A stretch of DNA of 64,000 bases. Origin: Alphaproteobacteria bacterium LSUCC0396. Its GTDB lineage: Bacteria; Pseudomonadota; Alphaproteobacteria; Puniceispirillales; Puniceispirillaceae. The stretch covers positions 2,287,001 through 2,351,000 of the forward strand of contig CP166131.1 in assembly GCA_041228345.1 (NCBI GenBank), written 5' to 3'. The notes beneath the pieces are model-generated. The model did no database searches and was not told the DNA's origin. It saw nothing but the letters and a program-made list of their open reading frames with translations. The position numbers were made by a program, and so were the translations under genes. This document shows, one piece after another, positions 1,937-28,792 of the stretch. Numbering within the stretch: the first letter of the stretch is position 1; each line of letters starts with the position of its first letter.

Positions 1937-3160
1937 ATGGTTAGAGTGTGCATAGAAAGACAGTACTTACCAATCGCCGATGCGTTGTGCGACATTTTTA
2001 AAATGCGAATGGCAGATGTTGGTATTCGAGGTAATGGTCCTGTTGAAGCATCTCGTGACAGTTCCACCAAGATTAAAAATATGAGTGAAACCCAACAGTT
2101 TTACGACGTATTTTTATGTGGTGCGGAATTTGCGGCCAAGGTAGGCAACACGTCAGCTATTGTTGACATTGCGCGTAGCATGAAAGCCAAGAAAATTTTG
2201 GTTGTTAATTCGGATGGTGGCTCTCAATGTTCCATAACTTCCGACATGAATGGAAAATTAATCCATATCACCCTACCAAAAATTGCTGCAAATAAATCAA
2301 TTTCCCAAAATTATTGTCATCAAATTATCGCAACTCTGTGTCTGGATGATGAACATATCGCTGTTGCTGATCCAAAAAGTCTACAGTTGATGCAACTTGC
2401 AAAGCGTGTTGCGACAACAGACGTAACGGCATTCATCAACGGACCAACCGGCACTGGCAAAGAAGTACTGGCAAAATTTATCCATAACCACTCACATCGC
2501 AAAGAAAATGCATTTGTTGCGGTCAATTGTGCGGCAATCCCCGAAAACATGCTTGAGGCGATATTATTTGGGCACGAAAAAGGTGCGTTCACTGGTGCCT
2601 CAACTGCAAATAAAGGGATTTTTCGCGCCGCTGATGGTGGCACATTGCTCCTGGATGAAATTTCTGAAATGCCGTTGTCTCTGCAAGCAAAGCTGCTTCG
2701 AGTCTTGCAGGAACGAAAAGTCACCCCGCTGGGTAGCCAACGTGAGATTGATGTTGATGTTCGGGTGATTGCGACGACCAACAGGGATATGCTGGCTACA
2801 ATTAATGACGGAAAATTCCGAGAAGATCTATTCTATCGGTTGAATGTGTTTCCTTTAACGACAAAACATTTAGCCAATCGTATCGACGATATCATACCAA
2901 TCAGTAGCATCCTATTGGCACGCCATAGCCCAAATTTGGAAGCCCTTCCCTTCATTGATGACGATGCCACTGACATCTTGCTGTCTTATGGTTGGCCAGG
3001 AAATGTACGCGAACTGGAAAATGTTTTGCAGCGGGCCATTGTTTTGTCATCGGGTGGCAAAATCATGGCTGGCGACATAATGGTCGATGGCACGATCCAA
3101 GAGCGCATTACTCGAAGCATTTCCACGGAAACAATGCTCTCAAGAAACGCAACTGCTTAA
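1937..3160 (+). CDS. FlbD-like sigma-54 activator: degenerate receiver plus AAA+, lacking a DNA-binding HTH
   Basis: A 407-residue activator. Residues 1 to about 140 are a diverged receiver-like region. They are followed by a complete AAA+ domain: Walker A GPTGTGKE at about 169, GAFTGA in [11 protein letters not shown] and Walker B LLLDEISE. The protein ends about 35 residues after the NVRELENV helix, and the stop is only 18 bases before fliE, so there is no room for the usual Fis-type HTH. Known relatives such as Helicobacter FlgR also lack an HTH and act from solution. Its gene heads the fliE-F-G transcript. The neighbouring divergent activator has the HTH that this one lacks, so the two may work together. 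Confidence 0.8.
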   Translation: MVRVCIERQYLPIADALCDIFKMRMADVGIRGNGPVEASRDSSTKIKNMSETQQFYDVFLCGAEFAAKVGNTSAIVDIARSMKAKKILVVNSDGGSQCSITSDMNGKLIHITLPKIAANKSISQNYCHQIIATLCLDDEHIAVADPKSLQLMQLAKRVATTDVTAFINGPTGTGKEVLAKFIHNHSHRKENAFVAVNCAAIPENMLEAILFGHEKGAFTGASTANKGIFRAADGGTLLLDEISEMPLSLQAKLLRVLQERKVTPLGSQREIDVDVRVIATTNRDMLATINDGKFREDLFYRLNVFPLTTKHLANRIDDIIPISSILLARHSPNLEALPFIDDDATDILLSYGWPGNVRELENVLQRAIVLSSGGKIMAGDIMVDGTIQERITRSISTETMLSRNATA

Positions 3161-3559: not shown

Positions 3560-5278
3560 ATGGCCGATGCAGTTGTAAATCAAAGTCGCGAAATGGTTAC
3601 TAATGACTCGGGCGTTTTTGCGCAGGCGGGAACATTAGCTGCGCAAGTAAGTCGGATGTATAATCAGCCAGCATTTCAACGCTCGCTGCCGACTATTGTT
3701 GCTTTGGCTGTGGCGGTTCTTGGTCTTGGCGCTTATCTGTGGATGCAGCAGCCGACCCGAACCACACTTTATGCGGGCCTTCCAGAGGCAGAGAAGTCTA
3801 GGGTCATAGATGCGTTACGCAATTCTGGGGTGAGTGTGACGCTTGATCCCGTGACTGGCGATGTTCTGGTGCCTACCGAAAATTATCACAGTTCCCGAAT
3901 GACATTAGCCGCGCAAGGGCTTCCAGCGTCAGCTGCAACGGGTTACGAACAGTTGGACTCAATTCAGATGGGCTCGAGCCGCTCAGTCGAGGCTGCCCGG
4001 TTAAAACAATCGCAGGAGTTGGAGCTGGCAAGGTCAATCAGCGAGATTGATTTAGTGCTCAGTGCGCGAGTGCATCTGGCGCTTCCTGATAAGGAGGTCT
4101 TTGTTCGTCAGCAAGCAGAGCCAACAGCGTCTGTGTTTTTGCAGCTTGCAAGAGGGCGTAGCCTTGGCCGTTCAAAAGTTGAGGCGATCACGCATCTGGT
4201 ATCAGCCTCAGTCCCAAATTTATCGAAAGAAAATGTATCTGTTGTTGATCAGAATGGCAATTTGCTCTCAAGCATCAATGGTGGTGTTGAAGGCCGTTTA
4301 TCTGATGCGCAACTTGAACATCGCATCCGCTTGGAGGATATTTATCGGTCGCGCATCACATCACTGCTATCGCCAATTGTTGGGGCAGGCAACATAAATG
4401 CTCAGATCAATTTAGATATTGATTTTACTAGAAGCGAAATTACCGAAGAAATCGTTGATCCAAATGGAAATGCGCTCCGGAGCGAGCAAAGCACGTCTGA
4501 TAAAACAATGGCAGCGCAGGCAAAAGGCATTCCAGGTGCGGTTGCTAACACACCGCCAGCACCGGCTGATTTAAATACGCAAAGATCGGCGACTGGGGCA
4601 AATGATGAATTGCGATCACAATCATCAAGCGAAGTAAAAAACTATGAGGTTAGCCGTACCGTATCCAGCACGGTGAACCCGACAAACATAATTCGGAAGA
4701 TTAATGCAGCGGTACTAGTGCGTGAGCGAACTATCATGGATCCAGAGACTGGACTGCCAACAACGCAAAAAATGACTGAAGGTGAATTGCTCCAAATTGA
4801 AAAACTGGTTGCTGATGCGATTGGCATCAATAAAGAACGTGGGGACAGCCTAACAGTGTCAAGTGCGCCCTTTATGACTGAATTATCTGAGGGTGTCGAA
4901 ATCCAGTGGTTTGAGCAGCCCTATATGCGGTCTATTATCAACCAGGCCGGTCTAGTGCTGATCCTCGCGATTGTCATTCTAGGCGTTGTCCGCCCACTAC
5001 TGAACCGTATTTTGATCCCAATCTCGGTTCCAGGCATGCATGGAGCTGCTGGCTCGGAAGATGAAATTGATATTGACCAAATTGAGGTTAGTGAAGGTGA
5101 AAGCCTTGAAGACATCAAGGCGAAGCTGAAGCCGAAGAAGGCCTCCATTTCGGCAGAAATGCTTGATACTGCAAACACCTATGATGACAAGGTCGCGGTA
5201 ATCCGTATGATTGTTTCTGATGAAGCTGGCCGTGTCTCTAACGTCTTCAAATCAATGATGTCGCGCGATATTGGCTAG
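3560..5278 (+). CDS. fliF: Flagellar MS-ring protein FliF
   Basis: FliF forms the inner-membrane MS ring that houses the export gate and carries the FliG rotor ring. The 572-residue product has a first membrane helix at about residues 45-63 and the YscJ/FliF ring-building domain after it, with the LYAGLPEAEKSRVIDALRNS motif. A long low-complexity periplasmic loop follows (about 300-380). A second membrane helix lies near residue 460-480, and a short acidic C-terminal tail would bind FliG. Length and domain order are those of a normal FliF. It sits in the fliE-F-G-H-I-J series. Confidence 0.95.
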   Translation: MADAVVNQSREMVTNDSGVFAQAGTLAAQVSRMYNQPAFQRSLPTIVALAVAVLGLGAYLWMQQPTRTTLYAGLPEAEKSRVIDALRNSGVSVTLDPVTGDVLVPTENYHSSRMTLAAQGLPASAATGYEQLDSIQMGSSRSVEAARLKQSQELELARSISEIDLVLSARVHLALPDKEVFVRQQAEPTASVFLQLARGRSLGRSKVEAITHLVSASVPNLSKENVSVVDQNGNLLSSINGGVEGRLSDAQLEHRIRLEDIYRSRITSLLSPIVGAGNINAQINLDIDFTRSEITEEIVDPNGNALRSEQSTSDKTMAAQAKGIPGAVANTPPAPADLNTQRSATGANDELRSQSSSEVKNYEVSRTVSSTVNPTNIIRKINAAVLVRERTIMDPETGLPTTQKMTEGELLQIEKLVADAIGINKERGDSLTVSSAPFMTELSEGVEIQWFEQPYMRSIINQAGLVLILAIVILGVVRPLLNRILIPISVPGMHGAAGSEDEIDIDQIEVSEGESLEDIKAKLKPKKASISAEMLDTANTYDDKVAVIRMIVSDEAGRVSNVFKSMMSRDIG

Positions 5279-22267: not shown

Positions 22268-22327
22268 ATAGATATTTTGCAAATTGCGTGCCGTAACCTC
22301 AAAGTTTTTTTTTAGGAGGACGGGATT

Positions 22328-23818
22328 ATGCAACTATCTCAGTCAGTAAAACTAAAGCAAAAACAGTCGCTGGTGATGACACCGCAGCTGCAGCAAGCAA
22401 TCAAATTGCTGCAATTATCCAATTTGGAACTCAGTCAACATCTGCAAGAGCAGGTTGACGAGAACCCATTTTTGGAGCTTGGTAATAATGAAATTTCTGC
22501 TCAAACACCATCTGATACCCTTGCTGATTCTGAAAAAGCTACTGCGTTGGAGGCTGTTGACCATACCGATCTCACGGAGATGAAGGCAAGTGCCGCACTT
22601 CGAGAGGACCCGACCGAACATAGTGATTTTGAAAACAGGTTTGACCAATCAATTGTTGACGCGCCACGCAGTGGTAATTCAAACGCGCCGTTTGAGGGGG
22701 ACTTTGACGCAATCAGCAATGTATCGTCAAAGGAAGGGTTCTATCCAGGGCTTTTCCGCCAGTTAAATCTTGCGATAGACGATCCTAAGCAGCGCTTGAT
22801 TGCCGGTCATTTTGTAAATGCGCTGGAGCCAAGTGGCTGGATTGGGATGCTGGTTCAAGATGTGGCTGATGCCAGCGGTTGCAACCTTGACGAGGCCGAG
22901 GACGTCTTGGCTATTTTGCAGACCTTTGAGCCAACCGGGCTTTTTGCGCGCAATCTTGAGGATTGTTTGCGTCTGCAACTAATCGAGAAGGGCGCGATGA
23001 CCGATGCATTTTCAACCTTGTTAGAAAATTTGGACCTGCTGGGTCGCGGTGAGGTGAAACGCCTTGCAAGGCTGATCAAAGGAACGACAGATGATGTCAT
23101 GGATATGCTGGCAATTATCCGAACGTTAAACCCAAAGCCTGGCGAATTTTTAGGAATTGACCACCTTGAGATGCCAAGCCCAGACGTTATTGTAAAGCGG
23201 CGCTCAGACGGCTGGGCGGTTGAGCTGAACCGGTCAACCTTGCCAGCGATCGTTATTAATGAGGATTACGCCAATCTGGTTGCAACAAAAAAGATGGATG
23301 AGCAGGCGCAAAACTATTCGGCAACCGCCCTGAATAATGCCCGGTGGCTAAAGCGTGCGGTTGAACAGCGCAATTCAACGACCTTAAAAATCAGCGCTGA
23401 AATTATTCGTCAGCAAACTGATTTTTTGGAAAAGGGGCTGGATTATCTAAAGCCGTTATCATTGCGTGATGTGGCGCAGGCGGTCGGTATGCATGAAAGC
23501 ACTGTCAGCCGTGTTACCACCGGCTTACTGATTGCAACGCCGCGCGGAGGAATGCCTCTTAAATCGTTCTTTAGTGTTAATATTGCATCGCGTGCGCCGT
23601 CAGGTGATGCGTCGGCAGCGGCGGTTCGTAATATGGTAAAGCGATTGATTATGCAGGAGACGCCGGGCAAGCCGTTAAGTGATGAAGCAATTTGTAAAAT
23701 GATCGCGGATGAGGGGATTGATCTTGCCCGCCGGACAGTCGCTAAATACCGCGAAATGATGAATATTCCGTCATCGTCACAACGCAGGATGCAGGCACGT
23801 CTTGCAAATATTCGGTAG
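22328..23818 (+). CDS. rpoN: RNA polymerase sigma-54 factor RpoN
   Basis: The alternative sigma factor that recognises -24/-12 promoters and needs an AAA+ activator. The 496-residue product has the glutamine-rich region I (SLVMTPQLQQAIKLLQLSNL), the acidic region II, the core-binding domain, the HTH (SLRDVAQAVGMHESTVSRV) and the RpoN box ARRTVAKYRE at about residues 467-476. An AGGAGG site precedes the ATG. Its placement next to flagellar genes, with sigma-54 promoters all around, suggests that flagellar control is its main task. The usual partners lptB, hpf and ptsN do not follow it here. Confidence 0.95.
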   Translation: MQLSQSVKLKQKQSLVMTPQLQQAIKLLQLSNLELSQHLQEQVDENPFLELGNNEISAQTPSDTLADSEKATALEAVDHTDLTEMKASAALREDPTEHSDFENRFDQSIVDAPRSGNSNAPFEGDFDAISNVSSKEGFYPGLFRQLNLAIDDPKQRLIAGHFVNALEPSGWIGMLVQDVADASGCNLDEAEDVLAILQTFEPTGLFARNLEDCLRLQLIEKGAMTDAFSTLLENLDLLGRGEVKRLARLIKGTTDDVMDMLAIIRTLNPKPGEFLGIDHLEMPSPDVIVKRRSDGWAVELNRSTLPAIVINEDYANLVATKKMDEQAQNYSATALNNARWLKRAVEQRNSTTLKISAEIIRQQTDFLEKGLDYLKPLSLRDVAQAVGMHESTVSRVTTGLLIATPRGGMPLKSFFSVNIASRAPSGDASAAAVRNMVKRLIMQETPGKPLSDEAICKMIADEGIDLARRTVAKYREMMNIPSSSQRRMQARLANIR

Positions 23819-23920: not shown

Positions 23921-24151
23921 CTATTTTGTTGCGTGCGCCGCAACTAACGAACGTGTGATCAGATATTCTTCACTGGTTAGTGGCTGGTCACTCATAAATT
24001 TACCAAGCGGAACGATATGCTGGCTTTCCGGTTTGTCTTCCTGATCGAAATGAACGAACTCGATGCCAAGGTCTTTTGCGTCATGGCGTGTTTTCTTGGC
24101 AAAGGCCAACTCGGCCTCAGCAGTAAAAACTGGTTTTGTCTGGCGGCTCAT
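23921..24151 (-). CDS. Small conserved-looking soluble protein, unknown function
   Basis: A 76-residue acidic/basic soluble protein. The ATG at 24151 (MSRQTKPVF) is chosen because GAGGAG lies about seven bases before it; the open frame extends further upstream but without a ribosome site. It contains FAKKTRHDAKDLGIEFVHFD and a C-terminal helix. No membrane segment, cysteine or known motif is present. A -24/-12-like sequence upstream (24217-24230) hints at sigma-54 control. Function unknown. Confidence 0.6.
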   Translation of the reverse strand: MSRQTKPVFTAEAELAFAKKTRHDAKDLGIEFVHFDQEDKPESQHIVPLGKFMSDQPLTSEEYLITRSLVAAHATK

Positions 24152-24215: not shown

Positions 24216-24231
24216 TGCATTTCGCATGCCA
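24216..24231 (-). promoter_or_regulatory. Candidate sigma-54 promoter of the 76-residue gene
   Basis: The minus strand reads TGGCATGCGAAATGCA, with GG (24229-24230) and GC (24217-24218) exactly 10 bases apart. The TGGCATG element is excellent and the -12 element (ATGC) is imperfect. The leader to the ATG at 24151 would be about 54 bases. Confidence 0.45.
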
Positions 24232-24281: not shown

Positions 24282-26141
24282 CTATTCAATAAGGCTAGTT
24301 TGCCGTAACTCACCTGCAACGCTGATCTGCCGTCCGACATTCATAAACTTAACCGGATCGATTGATTTGTTGTTGATCCGAATTTCATAATGTAGATGAG
24401 CGCCCGCTGATTTGCCAGTATTGCCCATTTTGCCAATGATATGATTTTCGCCAATATAATCGCCGCGTTTGACAGTGATGCGGGCGAGATGCGCATATGT
24501 GGTAATTACGCCAAAATCATGCTCTATCCTCACGACCTTGCCGAACGAGCCTTCAGTGCCAGCATAGATTACTGTTCCCGGGGCGGCGGCGCGCACATTT
24601 TCCTGCCATGTGCCAGCCAAATCAACACCGTGATGGAATGTTACCTTGCCAGTCTTCGGATGTTTACGATTTCCGTAATCACTTGAAATGTAGAAATACA
24701 GCATTGGGGGTTTGAATGGTATTTTCCGCAATACTCCCCGATGTTCGGCAAGGTTGATCATCACATCCTTTAGAGTTGGATCGTTGGCACTGTCATCTAG
24801 TGGGAGTGGTTCCGGCAGGGCCTCAGTGGCAATGCCAAGGCCGGTCACAGTCGCGCGGATGTAATCAATCTCTTGTTTTAGCGATAACAGCATTTTTCTG
24901 GTGCGGGTCGCATCGGTCACAAGTGGTATTACTGGTCCTTGCTGGTTGGCGAAAAATCCTGATTGCAGTCCATCATCTTGAGGGTATTGCGGTACTGCGG
25001 TCACTGTATTGGCCTTTTCTGCAGGCGGCAAAGGCTGGGTCAAACCATCTGAAAAGTCACGTGACATGTGGCGGTCATGGATAGCCTCATCACTTTTACC
25101 ATCGTCCAAAGCGCCGTTGTTTTCAATTGTCACAGGCTCAGTTTTTTTAGGCTTACTTGTGAAATTTGGTAAAAGCGCTATCGCAATTTCCTGTGCGCGT
25201 GCAGATAAGCTGTTTTCAAGTATAGGCGAAGGGCGCGCAACATTCATCATCGTTGGCGCGTCAGGTTCTCCTGGGCTAACCAATTGTGACAGGTTAGAAG
25301 CTGACGCCAGCTCTGTGTAGGGCGCGGTATTCACAACTGCCTCTGCATTTTCCTCAGCCTCATTCATATTTTGGAGAGGGACTTCAGGAGTGGGCAGCGC
25401 TTTTATATCAGCCATCATGCCAATCGCTGCCTCGCTCTCAACGGTAATCCGTTTGCCGCCTTGAATAATCATTGGCATGTTGTCAGATACCGATTGCGAC
25501 GAAGAGGATGTAATTTTTTGGTTCTTTGGGACCGTATTGATTTGCGGGGTTTGAGGAGTAAGTAGAACAGGCTTGGCCATGATCCGGCCGACAATAGGTC
25601 GCGCTGGCTGCGCTATTTTTCCCTCAATTCCAGTTAGGTACATTCCATCTAGTTCCACAGATCGGTAATCGCTCCACTGTTTGACATCAGCTTGAGGCGT
25701 TTTGTCTTGAGCGATAACTGGCTGAGGTATGATAGCAAACTTGGGTTTTGAGGTGGTTTTTAGTTTGCTGGTGGCTGGGGCGTCAGTTGAGTTAATGCTT
25801 GCTTCCGTGGTTTTGATGGTTTCTTCTCGCCCAACCTTAGTGAAGCTATAGCTCCCGATCAGGTTTGAATAGAAAATTGTGGCAATGCCAGCCATGCAGA
25901 CAAGAACACCTGTGAGCACGAATGATGGCTTTGACTTAACCCCGACAGGTCGATCGCAGGTAGAAACCAAGGGCCTGTTTTCATGCAAAACCGATTCTTT
26001 ATCAGTAATAATTGGTCCTATATCTGTCTGATTAACATGTTTCAGCTCAGGGCTAAAATTATCATAAAGGCGTGTTAGACCAATGATGTTTGCAATTTTT
26101 ATCTCACCTGATCCGATCGCAGTCCTGCCCTTACTTGTCAT
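24282..26141 (-). CDS. Inner-membrane-anchored M23 peptidoglycan endopeptidase
   Basis: A 619-residue protein with a cytosolic N-terminus, one membrane helix near residues 75-98, and a long disordered periplasmic linker rich in P, T, K and Q. The C-terminal M23 (LytM-type) domain keeps its zinc and catalytic residues: HHGVD at about 503-507, YAHL near 550 and HLHYE at about 582-586. It probably cuts peptide cross-links in murein. It lies seven bases downstream of a small membrane protein in the same operon and opposite two bactofilin genes. M23 peptidases paired with bactofilins shape cells in other bacteria, so localised wall remodelling is likely. Confidence 0.85.
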   Translation of the reverse strand: MTSKGRTAIGSGEIKIANIIGLTRLYDNFSPELKHVNQTDIGPIITDKESVLHENRPLVSTCDRPVGVKSKPSFVLTGVLVCMAGIATIFYSNLIGSYSFTKVGREETIKTTEASINSTDAPATSKLKTTSKPKFAIIPQPVIAQDKTPQADVKQWSDYRSVELDGMYLTGIEGKIAQPARPIVGRIMAKPVLLTPQTPQINTVPKNQKITSSSSQSVSDNMPMIIQGGKRITVESEAAIGMMADIKALPTPEVPLQNMNEAEENAEAVVNTAPYTELASASNLSQLVSPGEPDAPTMMNVARPSPILENSLSARAQEIAIALLPNFTSKPKKTEPVTIENNGALDDGKSDEAIHDRHMSRDFSDGLTQPLPPAEKANTVTAVPQYPQDDGLQSGFFANQQGPVIPLVTDATRTRKMLLSLKQEIDYIRATVTGLGIATEALPEPLPLDDSANDPTLKDVMINLAEHRGVLRKIPFKPPMLYFYISSDYGNRKHPKTGKVTFHHGVDLAGTWQENVRAAAPGTVIYAGTEGSFGKVVRIEHDFGVITTYAHLARITVKRGDYIGENHIIGKMGNTGKSAGAHLHYEIRINNKSIDPVKFMNVGRQISVAGELRQTSLIE

Positions 26142-26148
26142 GCCACTC

Positions 26149-26538
26149 TTATCCCAGTTTTAGCCAAGCCATTAATATCAGCAAGATGTTGGTAATCAAC
26201 TGAATGCCAATCACCACCAAAAGCAGTTTGTTAGTTGTTTGATTACGAATATTCAATTGGAAAGCTGGCATGTTCAAGTTGTTTTCAAGACTATTGTGTG
26301 TGTCTGATAAAGAGCCGGAAATTGGCTTCGGCAAAGCTGTTCCCAAGACTTCAGGTCTGTACTGGCTGGCGCTGGCCTCGGTTACTGGTTCTATGATGTC
26401 CGTTGCAAGCGAAGTATCGCTATTGTGGCCAGCGCTCTGGGGTGCATTTCCAACCCCGCGATTAGCGACAATCGCTGCAGAAACTTCGTTTCGCATTTCT
26501 TCTATTCTTTTGCGAAGATCAACAACGTCATCAGCCAT
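26149..26538 (-). CDS. Small tail-anchored coiled-coil membrane protein
   Basis: A 129-residue protein from the ATG at 26538 (MADDVVDLRKRIEEM). It has an N-terminal helix with heptads, a low-complexity middle and a single C-terminal membrane helix (LLLVVIGIQLITNILLILMAW). An in-frame TTG at 26607 is rejected as start because the likely promoter -12 element lies only four bases before it. The gene precedes the M23 peptidase by seven bases. It may recruit or regulate that enzyme; no family was recognised. Confidence 0.65.
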   Translation of the reverse strand: MADDVVDLRKRIEEMRNEVSAAIVANRGVGNAPQSAGHNSDTSLATDIIEPVTEASASQYRPEVLGTALPKPISGSLSDTHNSLENNLNMPAFQLNIRNQTTNKLLLVVIGIQLITNILLILMAWLKLG

Positions 26539-26609
26539 GGTTTTTTTTATGATTGCATTAAATATTTTATTAAATCGTCGTTTTATTAAGTATTGTTGGC
26601 TTCTCAATA

Positions 26610-26625
26610 AGCAAACGACATGCCA
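26610..26625 (-). promoter_or_regulatory. Sigma-54 promoter of the M23 peptidase operon
   Basis: The minus strand reads TGGCATGTCGTTTGCTT, essentially the full consensus TGGCAYR-N4-TTGCW, with GG at 26623-26624 and GC at 26611-26612. The start would be near 26599, about 60 bases before the ATG at 26538. This is one of the best sigma-54 matches in the window. Confidence 0.8.
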
Positions 26626-26972
26626 TCGTTTGATGTTGAAAACACCCGAAACTAGATCTTAACGTAAATTTCCTTTTTGATGATACAAAAGACTTTACTA
26701 AAAAAATATGGTTTCAGACTTTTTCGAGAATCAAAGGTATAGAAAGTTTGCAAATATCCAATTCTATCAACCAAATAATATCGATTATGTCGCCAAATAG
26801 TCTGTTTGTGCGAGTCAACGGATTGATGACCGAATATTGCCCGCTACTGATGACTAGCCAGATTGAGGGAAATATCAAAGCTGAGATTTTTTATGTCACA
26901 TAACCCGCGGTTGTTAATGGCGATATAACGGCGCATAATTTGGCGTAACTTCAAATAAAGAGGCAAAAACAG
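26626..26972. other. Divergent intergenic region before the bactofilins, with a weak -24/-12-like site
   Basis: AT-rich spacer of about 350 bases between the M23 operon and the bactofilin genes. GG at 26919-26920 and GC at 26931-26932 are exactly 10 apart (TGGCGATATAACGGC), 41 bases before the TTG start of the first bactofilin. The -12 half (CGGC) is poor, so this may be chance. No coding frame or RNA was recognised. Confidence 0.3.
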
Positions 26973-27410
26973 TTGGATAAGCTGGGTAGCAAGACAATTA
27001 TTAGCGCTAGTGCGTCATTTATTGGCAAGATTATCAATGCTGGTGTTATTGATGTTCACGGGAAGGTAAGTGCTGATTTGAGCACTAAAAAAATCACCAT
27101 AAGTGAAACCGGTCAGTTCCGTGGTGCTATACGAGCTGAATTAGCTGTTATTTCTGGAGATTATGATGGCCAAATGGAAGCTGGCAGTGTCTGGGCAACC
27201 TCAACTGCTCGTATTTCAGGAAAGTTGCAATACAAAACATTGCAAATGGATCGTGGAGCAGCGTTGAATTGCCATGTATTGCACAATTGGGACACGCAGG
27301 CCGATGTTACGGATGAAAATCAGGAAACCGGACCAGATAAATCCCTCCCTGGCATCGGGTCTGGGTCCAAGCTTGACAACAAGAACTCATCTCGAAAGAA
27401 GGGTGCCTGA
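26973..27410 (+). CDS. Bactofilin (polymer-forming cytoskeletal protein) 1
   Basis: A 145-residue protein whose core is a right-handed beta-helix of short repeats (SFIGKIINAGVIDVHGKV, ISETGQFRGAI, VISGDYDGQMEAG, ARISGKLQYKTLQMD), the bactofilin signature. The N-terminus (LGSKTIISAS) is the usual short hydrophobic membrane-targeting tail. The C-terminus is disordered. The start is TTG at 26973 after AGAGG. Bactofilins form filaments on the inner membrane and recruit wall enzymes. It ends three bases before the second bactofilin. Confidence 0.85.
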   Translation: MDKLGSKTIISASASFIGKIINAGVIDVHGKVSADLSTKKITISETGQFRGAIRAELAVISGDYDGQMEAGSVWATSTARISGKLQYKTLQMDRGAALNCHVLHNWDTQADVTDENQETGPDKSLPGIGSGSKLDNKNSSRKKGA

Positions 27411-27413
27411 CGC

Positions 27414-27773
27414 ATGTTGATCAGACCTAAGGAGCAAACGCCCACCCCTAGCGAGCATGCGACTTATATTCTTTTCGGATTGGTGATGGAGGGCTCGCTC
27501 GATGGTGGTGAGTTTCCAGTTGTGATAGATGGTAGTTTTAAAGGGGATATAGCCGCGAACGAGCTAACCATAAGCGAGCAGGGAAGTGTAACCGGTAAGA
27601 TTAAGGCCAGTAGTGTCAAGATTAACGGTAAATTTAGTGGTGAAATAATTTGTGAAAGTCTGACGGTTAGAGCAACTGGTAAGGTTGAGGGTGAGGTTCA
27701 GGCCGACGCGTTGTCAATTGATCTTGGTGCTGAAGTGATTGGATCGATAAGCCGAGTTAATCGTGAACTCTGA
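27414..27773 (+). CDS. Bactofilin 2
   Basis: A 119-residue bactofilin with the same beta-helical repeat pattern (FPVVIDGSFKGDI, LTISEQGSVTGKI, VKINGKFSGEI, LTVRATGKVEGEV, LSIDLGAEVIGSI). It begins three bases after the first one, so the two are co-translated and may co-polymerise. The N-terminal tail is longer and more hydrophilic than that of bactofilin 1. The pairing with the divergent M23 peptidase mirrors cell-shape loci in Helicobacter and other bacteria. Confidence 0.85.
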   Translation: MLIRPKEQTPTPSEHATYILFGLVMEGSLDGGEFPVVIDGSFKGDIAANELTISEQGSVTGKIKASSVKINGKFSGEIICESLTVRATGKVEGEVQADALSIDLGAEVIGSISRVNREL

Positions 27774-28213: not shown

Positions 28214-28792
28214 TTAATTTCCTCGGGCAAGTTTCAGCGGGCATTTCATCATCCGCGCTTCGATTTCAATATTTGCTGATGCGAATGTGTTTAGATCGCT
28301 CTGTTTCATCGTCAATGGAACAAGAATATTCGTGTTTAACCTGTAGGCCTCATTTTTTAAAATGATGATCGCATCATCCATTTTTCCGGTGTGCTTAACT
28401 TCTATAATCCCAATGGTGCTGCAGCCGGCCAACTGACTGTTTGTGCGGTTGCTGAATTGAATATTTTGTGTTCCGTCTATTGGTTTAGCAGCGTTTTTGT
28501 TTACTTCTACCGCTTGATCATTTGCGTTATTTTTAACCGCCATAAAGTGTTTGTTATTAAATTCATCAATAAGTGCGTTAGCAAGATCGTGCGCGACATC
28601 TGCCTTTACTTGCTCTGATCTCAGTGCATCCCATTCATCGGTTGGCACAACCACGACCGAGGCCTTGCCGTTCTTACGATTATCAATCAGAAGCTGGCAG
28701 CCTGCTGTCATGTAGCCGATGATTGTGATTGCAGTGATTGTGAAAAGTTTTTTGTGCACGACCGTGAACCAATTGATTGTCGAATTACTCAT
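28214..28792 (-). CDS. Lipoprotein with a DUF4156-like C-terminal region
   Basis: A 192-residue protein with a membrane segment and a lipobox-like YMTAGC, so Cys32 would be lipidated. The C-terminal half (AGCSTIGIIEVKHTGKMDDA, then ILKNEAYRLNTNILVPL) resembles the small envelope domain seen in DUF4156/RcsF-like proteins, with a conserved cysteine; this assignment is tentative. Located between the bactofilin region and core genes, and probably co-transcribed with the helical protein downstream. Function unknown. Confidence 0.6.
   Translation of the reverse strand: MSNSTINWFTVVHKKLFTITAITIIGYMTAGCQLLIDNRKNGKASVVVVPTDEWDALRSEQVKADVAHDLANALIDEFNNKHFMAVKNNANDQAVEVNKNAAKPIDGTQNIQFSNRTNSQLAGCSTIGIIEVKHTGKMDDAIIILKNEAYRLNTNILVPLTMKQSDLNTFASANIEIEARMMKCPLKLARGN

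Follow-up and report, generated by a model that had tools for sequence, protein, structure and literature searches.

Candidate sigma-54 control of an LmdC-bactofilin cluster in SAR116 bacteria

We analyse a stretch of 64,000 nucleotides from the genome of Alphaproteobacteria bacterium LSUCC0396 (G000:C1:2287001-2351000, called the window below; the genome is a single contig of 2.59 Mb), in which the genes for a small membrane protein (SM) and for a membrane-anchored M23 peptidase of the LmdC lineage stand back to back with bactofilin genes, close to rpoN (Table 1). The pair SM-lmdC is faced by a -24/-12 element, TGGCATGTCGTTTGCT, that agrees at every position with TGGCAYRNNNNTTGCW, which we take to be the sigma-54 consensus, with GG at -24 and GC at -12 in fixed spacing. 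We lean slightly towards reading the locus as an LmdC-bactofilin cell-shape module under sigma-54 control, in which SM-lmdC would be started along with the flagellar genes.

Table 1. Features of the window discussed in the text, in window coordinates
Feature	Position	Strand	Basis and remarks
-24/-12 (sigma-54) promoter element TGGCATGTCGTTTGCT, facing SM-lmdC	26610-26625	minus	zero mismatches to TGGCAYRNNNNTTGCW
SM, 129 aa, C-terminal membrane anchor (residues ~105-123)	26149-26538	minus	alignment, hydropathy
LmdC-type M23 endopeptidase (predicted), 619 aa	24282-26141	minus	PF01551, E 6.9e-30
Bactofilin 1, TTG start (ATG in L015-L018)	26973-27410	plus	PF04519, E 2.3e-18
Bactofilin 2	27414-27773	plus	PF04519, E 4.6e-21
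Third bactofilin, promoter-proximal, reduced to a remnant by an in-frame stop	~26769-26942	plus	tblastn, E 7.6e-12
Second -24/-12-like element TGGCATGCGAAATGCA, before the 76-aa gene	24216-24231	minus	1 mismatch
76-aa gene, convergent with rpoN	23921-24151	minus	core I-E-x-V-x-F-D ... P-L, alignment of 26
rpoN (sigma-54), convergent neighbour	22328-23818	plus	PF04552, PF04963, PF00309
Conserved neighbour, 102 aa	27902-28210	minus	in cluster loci of f1, f2, f3; no family above cut-off
Conserved neighbour, lipoprotein-like by eye (MTAGCQLL)	28214-28792	minus	in f1 and f2 loci
Sigma-54 activator, AAA+ and Fis-type HTH, no receiver found	601-1689	minus	PF00158, PF02954; beside flagellar genes
Sigma-54 activator adjoining fliF	1937-3160	plus	PF00158; best NCBIfam model FlbD

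The promoter-like site and the proteins behind it

The window contains 64 matches to the consensus with at most two mismatches, of which TGGCATGTCGTTTGCT is the only perfect one. Shuffled sequences contain 50.5 such matches on average, and the observed number is reached by 2 of 100 shuffles. As a control for chance -24/-12 matches we use the reversed pattern, which is matched perfectly twice in the window's genome, compared with 13 perfect matches to the consensus. TGGCATGTCGTTTGCT has the GG/GC spacing of TGGCAYRNNNNTTGCW, and RpoN and AAA+ activators are encoded in the same genome.

The conservation of the site is assessed in related genomes. A contig scan of public genomes with the window's peptidase returned 7 related loci, and for the order as a whole we looked in 136 genomes for FlhA, FliF, RpoN, bactofilin and matches to the peptidase profile. 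Among the matches listed, peptidase orthologs score at least 193 bits and other M23 proteins at most 111 bits. Orthologs are present in 83 of the 136 genomes, giving 83 cluster loci (the window's and 82 fetched from relatives), and the region between bactofilin and peptidase can be scored in 79 of them, G093, G123, G095 and G043 being dropped. In the window's genus (g1) a perfect site precedes SM in 9 of the 9 scorable loci, the window's included. The 16 bp of the site have an identity of 0.85 over 35 pairs with ungapped anchoring, compared with 0.34 in the 30 bp before it and 0.35 in the 20 bp after it. The original prediction had placed a near-consensus sigma-54 site before a small membrane protein and an anchored M23 enzyme; this is borne out, and the match is perfect.

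The site also bears on where SM begins. The ATG at 26538 lies about 70 nt downstream of TGGCATGTCGTTTGCT, whereas the TTG at 26607, which opens the longest frame, would lie upstream of a transcript from the site; we therefore reject the TTG and start SM at the ATG. In the alignment SM has a conserved N-terminal motif, MADxVVDIRKRIEEMRNEVSAAIV, and no Pfam or NCBIfam family matched it. A class-wide search of 288 genomes, with a profile that was built from g1 and may miss divergent copies, finds SM in four (three of family f1, one of family f10), and the protein is also present in G141, a genome of f10 outside the order. SM appears to be a tail-anchored partner; all copies found belong to this order or to f10.

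The peptidase has a cytoplasmic N-terminus of about 73 aa, one membrane helix, a periplasmic linker and a C-terminal M23 domain. Five residues that are invariant in six aligned peptidases (H503, D507, H551, H582 and H584) are presumably the zinc and catalytic residues of that domain, and the pattern HxxxD..HxH is present in 82 of the 83 orthologs, the remaining one being truncated. Hydropathy peaks at 2.0 from near residue 74, and a helix spans residues 72-109 in both of the AlphaFold models considered, for the window's protein and for that of a relative (L016). The relative's model has strands at 56-61 and 64-69 before the membrane helix and the window's has none there; both models are of low confidence, with a mean pLDDT of 53-55.

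The likeness of the lineage to LmdC includes a cytoplasmic hairpin motif before the membrane helix. After four truncated rows are dropped, 79 SAR116 orthologs have an N-terminus that can be read, and 77 of them contain the motif, 76 as a pattern match and G115 by eye. Outside the order, a class-wide peptidase search covered 241 genomes, and 20 of the 26 best-ranked loci were read. A bactofilin adjoins 19 of these 20 lmdC-like loci, with a single co-directional gene in 18 and three divergent genes in G141; in the twentieth, L184, no adjacent bactofilin is found. In 17 of the 19 loci other than G141 we see, by eye, a segment like FPERQIYIRSDGRVQFFTFS near the N-terminus, the printed translations of L173 and L175 ending short of it. 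This segment resembles the published LmdC peptide of Hyphomonas neptunium, which contains PERQIYHRSGGTVRYISISP according to the excerpted text of PMC10945521, and where that peptide has PERQIYHRSGGTVRYISISP a SAR116 relative carries RENRFLVLTRGGPVEVTLKP. The same excerpts report that LmdC of Rhodospirillum rubrum requires its hairpin to be placed in a bactofilin-dependent manner (PMC10945521). As judged from sequence, the peptidase lineage is of the LmdC type, with predicted DD-endopeptidase activity and predicted bactofilin binding.

Both intact bactofilin genes are divergent from SM-lmdC, so that the back-to-back arrangement of the original prediction is confirmed. Its description of the bactofilins as paired is not, at least as an original state. 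Three bactofilins are present in 73 of the 79 scorable loci, and four of the other six loci end at a contig edge; only the window's genome and that of its sister species (G084) truly have two, and they are the sole such genomes among the scorable ones of g1. A tblastn search with the intact copies from L015, L017 and L018 finds the third gene of the window as a remnant, whose in-frame stop is shared by the remnant in the sister species (L014).

Recurrence and direction of the sites across the order

The genes rpoN, peptidase, SM and divergent bactofilins, together with further neighbours, recur in families f1, f2 and f3, and G141 has the same layout with one extra open reading frame (ORF). When both strands of all 83 loci are scanned, we find 30 perfect sites and no perfect reversed one; with one mismatch the numbers are 153 and 9. 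The perfect sites fall before SM-lmdC (9), a 76-aa gene (13), the bactofilins (4) and a secreted-looking ORF (3), with one elsewhere.

The operon that a site faces differs from lineage to lineage. In g1 the bactofilins themselves have no sigma-54 site, whereas in genus g7 a perfect site points towards the bactofilins in 4 of 4 loci. In family f3 all 42 loci carry a 1-mismatch site towards the bactofilins and a 2-mismatch site, with GG and GC kept, towards SM. These two sites (loci among L080-L128) are divergent and overlap, with an offset of 12 and the TGCA at -12 in common, forming a 28-bp composite. In the 40 of 42 loci that can be anchored, its conservation per column is 0.94, compared with 0.70 and 0.65 in the flanks; there are 14 distinct sequences, one of them common to 24 genomes. 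The reversed pattern occurs in such regions with at most one mismatch in 2 of 79 loci and with at most two in 8 of 79, and it is therefore their conservation that argues for the 2-mismatch sites of f3. In a tree of RpoN (77 rows, midpoint root, long branches) g1 falls together with g2, g6 and g11 and g7 together with g4, g5 and g9, which implies several gains or losses of sites.

Of all sigma-54-like sites in the cluster, the one before the 76-aa gene is the most constant. Both the gene and its site in the window, TGGCATGCGAAATGCA, fall just beyond the range of the original prediction, which missed them. We searched about 700 nt before the rpoN stop, dropping 3 of the 83 loci that have no rpoN. 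A site with at most one mismatch, in the direction of the gene, is found in 76 of 80 genomes, 13 of them with a perfect one; at the same threshold neither the opposite strand nor the reversed pattern yields a match in any genome (0 of 80 in both cases). The typical form is TGGCAYRNNNNWTGCA. In G012, G026 and G043 the top-ranked match lies elsewhere and the 1-mismatch site before the 76-aa gene ranks second, and the four failures are three f2 genomes and one of g7. The gene is found in f1 and f3 loci and not in f2; a 59-aa frame similar to it occurs in f10 (L168). Its products share a short core, IExVxFDxxD...PL, over 26 aligned proteins, and no Pfam or NCBIfam family was found above cut-off. 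We reject a ThiN (Pfam) assignment, since E is 0.007, under cut-off, and in 1 of 26 members.

Several observations concern the remaining neighbours. About 35 nt before the rpoN start, and pointing away from it, lies CGGCACGCAATTTGCA (22278-22293, minus strand, one mismatch); a 1-mismatch site just before rpoN recurs in L014-L017, L019 and L020, and autoregulation of rpoN is possible. The product of 28214-28792 matches DUF4156 with E 0.0029, under cut-off. Near the cluster in g7 an ORF that looks secreted (L108 7120, L091 and L081) has a perfect -24/-12 site in all three cases, and a similar ORF in L168 has one with a single mismatch (5118-5133). By eye this g7/f10 ORF resembles a lytic transglycosylase (SLT-like), a reading that we discard, the L168 copy having no Pfam match.

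The link with flagella and competing explanations

The proposed link with flagella draws on the 12 other perfect sites of the window's genome. Nine of them lie in the flagellar region, and six of these precede flagellar genes in the right direction: a FlgF-like gene, FlgG, FlgL (the site sitting within the end of the preceding gene), FliS and a flagellin-like gene, the last of these with two sites in tandem. The gene names were given by eye, two of them backed by Flg_bb_rod matches. A further site in the region precedes an epimerase-like gene, again in the right direction. The cluster itself adjoins rpoN and motB, and both activators of the flagellar region lie within 26 kb of it; the one adjoining fliF scores 295 bits against the FlbD model NF050807, far under the cut-off of 750.

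The co-occurrence of the module with flagella across the clade, which the original prediction had proposed as a check, has the expected direction. The 83 genomes with the peptidase contain RpoN in 82 cases, bactofilin in 81 and FlhA or FliF in 72, compared with 13, 14 and 32 of the 53 genomes without it, and rpoN is found in 80 of the 83 cluster loci. The association with flagella is modest: among the 44 genomes that are at least 90% complete, FlhA or FliF is present in 23 of 26 with the peptidase and 11 of 18 without (p 0.064), and RpoN in 26 of 26 and 10 of 18. These numbers are soft, because adjacent genes can disappear jointly and because many of the genomes are incomplete. Ten of the genomes at least 90% complete have neither FlhA nor FliF, and seven of them lack the peptidase while three have it. 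The cluster without its sigma-54 site in non-flagellated relatives, which would have spoken against the tie, does not appear in the three genomes examined that have the peptidase without FlhA or FliF. G046 has flagellar rod genes; G086, which is fragmented, retains the site, and its cluster is flanked by motA/motB-like genes on a contig of 12951 bases (L015); and in G093, also fragmented, the upstream region is missing.

Joint loss of rpoN and the cluster in flagellated genomes was considered as proof of dependence and set aside. G092, G101 and G104, in which both are missing, keep perfect sites, several of which share contigs with flagellar rod genes, and assembly gaps are likely. G082, which belongs to the window's species and is 94% complete, has none of FlhA, FliF, RpoN, the peptidase ortholog and the bactofilins, which could be an assembly gap or a variable region. 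G068 (99% complete) has FlhA and lacks RpoN, a perfect -24/-12 site, FliF and the cluster; a natural loss of the whole sigma-54 system is possible there. We do not use it as evidence of co-loss, FliF being absent.

Our reading starts from what is observed, namely the genes, the catalytic residues, the hairpin motif in relatives, the conservation of the cluster and the conserved, enriched -24/-12 sites. RpoN-polymerase would start SM-lmdC with the flagellar genes once opened by an AAA+ protein, for which the two activators of the flagellar region are the likeliest candidates. SM would be held in the inner membrane by its tail, and LmdC, crossing the membrane once, would cut the peptide cross-links of peptidoglycan. 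Bactofilin polymers from the divergent operon may hold LmdC at chosen places via the cytoplasmic hairpin, so that local wall growth would be altered and, with it, how curved or how long the swimming cell is. The sigma-54 promoters would dose LmdC and SM in g1, bactofilin in g7 or both in f3, probably during the flagellar programme. We infer transcription from the sites, the acting activator, the recruitment of LmdC by bactofilin and any effect on shape; of these, the identity of the activator is the weakest step. The claim that the flagellar regulator is linked with wall remodelling and a bactofilin scaffold holds in part: the tie to sigma-54 stands, given the 30 perfect sites and the flagellar ones, but in g1 it does not extend to the bactofilins.

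A number of results weigh against this reading. First, perfect matches are not in themselves promoters. Two sites of the flagellar region, identical copies of one repeat, lie in the spacers that precede two tandem flagellins and point away from them, and the three sites outside that region precede no convincing gene, one of them lying inside a frame; thus, not every perfect match is a promoter. (The repeat, at the centres of L007 and L008, lies at 2241140 and 2242520 on the minus strand of the window's genome and has perhaps no role.) Furthermore, G122, in which a genome search found neither RpoN, FlhA, FliF nor rod genes, contains 14 perfect matches and no reversed one, all of them inside frames of at least 100 aa. 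These look like background. The reversed-pattern control therefore understates chance, genome-wide counts prove little, and it is position and conservation that carry the evidence. Second, the sites and the module are uneven in their distribution. No site is found at lmdC or the bactofilins in 24 of the 79 loci (g2 7, g4 3, g5 1, g6 1, g9 9, g12 3). In family f4 RpoN is present in 12 of 12 genomes and FlhA or FliF in 8 of 12, with the module in none; a ninth f4 genome, G128, has rod genes, also without the module. Among the class-wide lmdC loci, 0 of 19 have a site with at most one mismatch in 600 nt around the frame start, RpoN not having been checked there; the sigma-54 link therefore belongs to this lineage and not to LmdC at large, as far as tested. 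Third, the genome has six PF00158 matches over cut-off, four of them strong, of which two lie in the flagellar region and two outside it, and a search of 8- and 9-mers in nine regions of the window's genome found no enhancer motif shared with flagellar promoters. The counts of shared words stay near those of shuffled sequence; the best 9-mer is AT-rich and occurs in 8 of the 9 regions, compared with shuffle maxima of 6-7, and two of these regions are the identical misdirected repeat. Finally, in the window's species one of three bactofilins has decayed to a remnant, and erosion of the hairpin motif affects its peptidase and its sister's, the only 2 of 79.

The third group of results leads to the best placed of the alternatives, in itself unlikely: the promoter is real and of the sigma-54 type but is driven by a non-flagellar activator, perhaps NtrC or NtrX, answering nitrogen or envelope state, so that only the sigma factor is common with flagella. 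The two strong activators outside the flagellar region stand side by side at 289-293 kb (their identity as NtrC/NtrX is a guess), and the lack of a common enhancer motif between the SM-lmdC site and the other perfect sites would fit. In Rhodobacter sphaeroides an NtrX binding peak is listed at the homologous MepM-like/CcmA pair, RSP_2974-2975, with no significant expression change, according to excerpts of PMC7240162. Yet half of the 12 other perfect sites are correctly placed before flagellar genes, the cluster sits beside rpoN and motB at no more than 26 kb from both flagellar-region activators, and in the order the module mostly accompanies flagellar genes.

It is doubtful, too, that the module is simply decaying in the window's species, with a promoter that persists before an LmdC that no longer works with bactofilins. 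The remnant with its stop common to the sister species and the hairpin lost in these two species fit such decay. Against it, the promoter and the catalytic residues are kept, two bactofilins are intact, and the window's LmdC is 89% identical to its sister's. We regard the window's own protein as LmdC-type by descent only, its cytoplasmic hairpin having eroded, and the module of this species looks partly uncoupled, with site and catalytic residues retained. A species that combines a lost bactofilin with an eroded hairpin suggests which bactofilin holds LmdC; the coincidence is a single evolutionary event, which makes a connection of the hairpin with the third bactofilin no more than a lead.

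An extension of our reading, which we consider improbable, is that the overlapping sites of the f3 composite exclude each other and so act as a shape switch in SAR116, fixing the ratio of bactofilin to LmdC, with the 76-aa gene (whose core looks, by eye, like strand-turn-strand) as a new regulator of the module or of RpoN.

The original prediction's own idea, that the peptidase makes openings in the wall for flagella or gives the flagellated pole its shape, is disfavoured and seems to us quite improbable. The promoter type is common to flagellar genes, and the module is absent from 21 of the 32 genomes without FlhA and FliF, compared with 32 of the 104 with either. However, the eight flagellar f4 genomes do without the cluster, and 22 of the 24 site-less loci (g2, g4, g5, g6, g9, g12) belong to genomes that have FlhA or FliF and keep the module; wall-opening for flagella is unlikely for these reasons. 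In addition, the LmdC/BacA pairs studied by experiment set budding growth and cell curvature, according to the excerpts of PMC10945521. That TGGCATGTCGTTTGCT is a chance match is hardly credible: five of the 12 other perfect matches face no convincing gene and G122 has its matches inside frames, but TGGCATGTCGTTTGCT is intergenic and perfect in all scorable genomes of the genus amid diverged flanks, and the cluster loci have no reversed counterpart to their 30 perfect sites.

Sigma-54-controlled expression of an LmdC-bactofilin module thus remains the reading that we prefer. This marine lineage offers a natural case in which the module stands behind promoters of the sigma-54 kind, as flagellar genes also do, so that a coupling between swimming and shape becomes directly testable. 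The authors of the LmdC/BacA study speculate, in the excerpted text, that outside cues may control expression of the pair and tune curvature, which promotes motility (PMC10945521).

Comparison with known systems

Overlapping sigma-54 sites have a possible precedent. Lutz 1990, by its title, reportedly concerns divergent NtrA-dependent promoters in the Escherichia coli hydrogenase cluster, and the comparison with the overlap in f3 is made by title alone. A literature search for overlapping or divergent sigma-54 promoters gave, in PMC3844500, matches to reference titles only, one of them on divergent NtrA-dependent promoters; the novelty of the f3 composite is therefore not established.

Sigma-54 has been connected with wall and shape before. 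The survey of Francke (2011) associates it generally with flagella and peptidoglycan genes; the survey is broad and its abstract names no bactofilin or LmdC (PMC3162934). In the ShkA-ShpA-TacA system of the Caulobacter stalk, a sigma-54-activating phosphorelay governs a shape trait, as in our reading, but that system is tied to stalk growth and StaR and shows no lmdC promoter link in the excerpted text (PMC5590869). More generally, in the excerpts of PMC5590869, PMC9218911 and PMC7240162 no bactofilin or lmdC gene is described with a sigma-54 promoter.

The Helicobacter and Campylobacter shape system (CcmA, Csd1-3, Pgp3) is similarly reported to employ a bactofilin and M23 enzymes in helical cell shape. 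It has other partners, and the NCBIfam Pgp3 model is the second best for the window's peptidase, at 80 bits, far under its cut-off of 300.

The closest relative is LmdC-BacA of H. neptunium and R. rubrum, with which the SAR116 cluster shares a membrane-anchored M23 enzyme with a hairpin segment, a neighbouring bactofilin and the catalytic residues. Whereas LmdC-BacA has one co-directional bactofilin, the SAR116 bactofilins are divergent and usually three, and the cluster adds SM, sigma-54 sites and rpoN alongside, with an eroded hairpin in the window's species. Thus, the sigma-54 sites that shift direction, the triple divergent bactofilins, SM and the 76-aa gene are new features on a known LmdC-bactofilin module.

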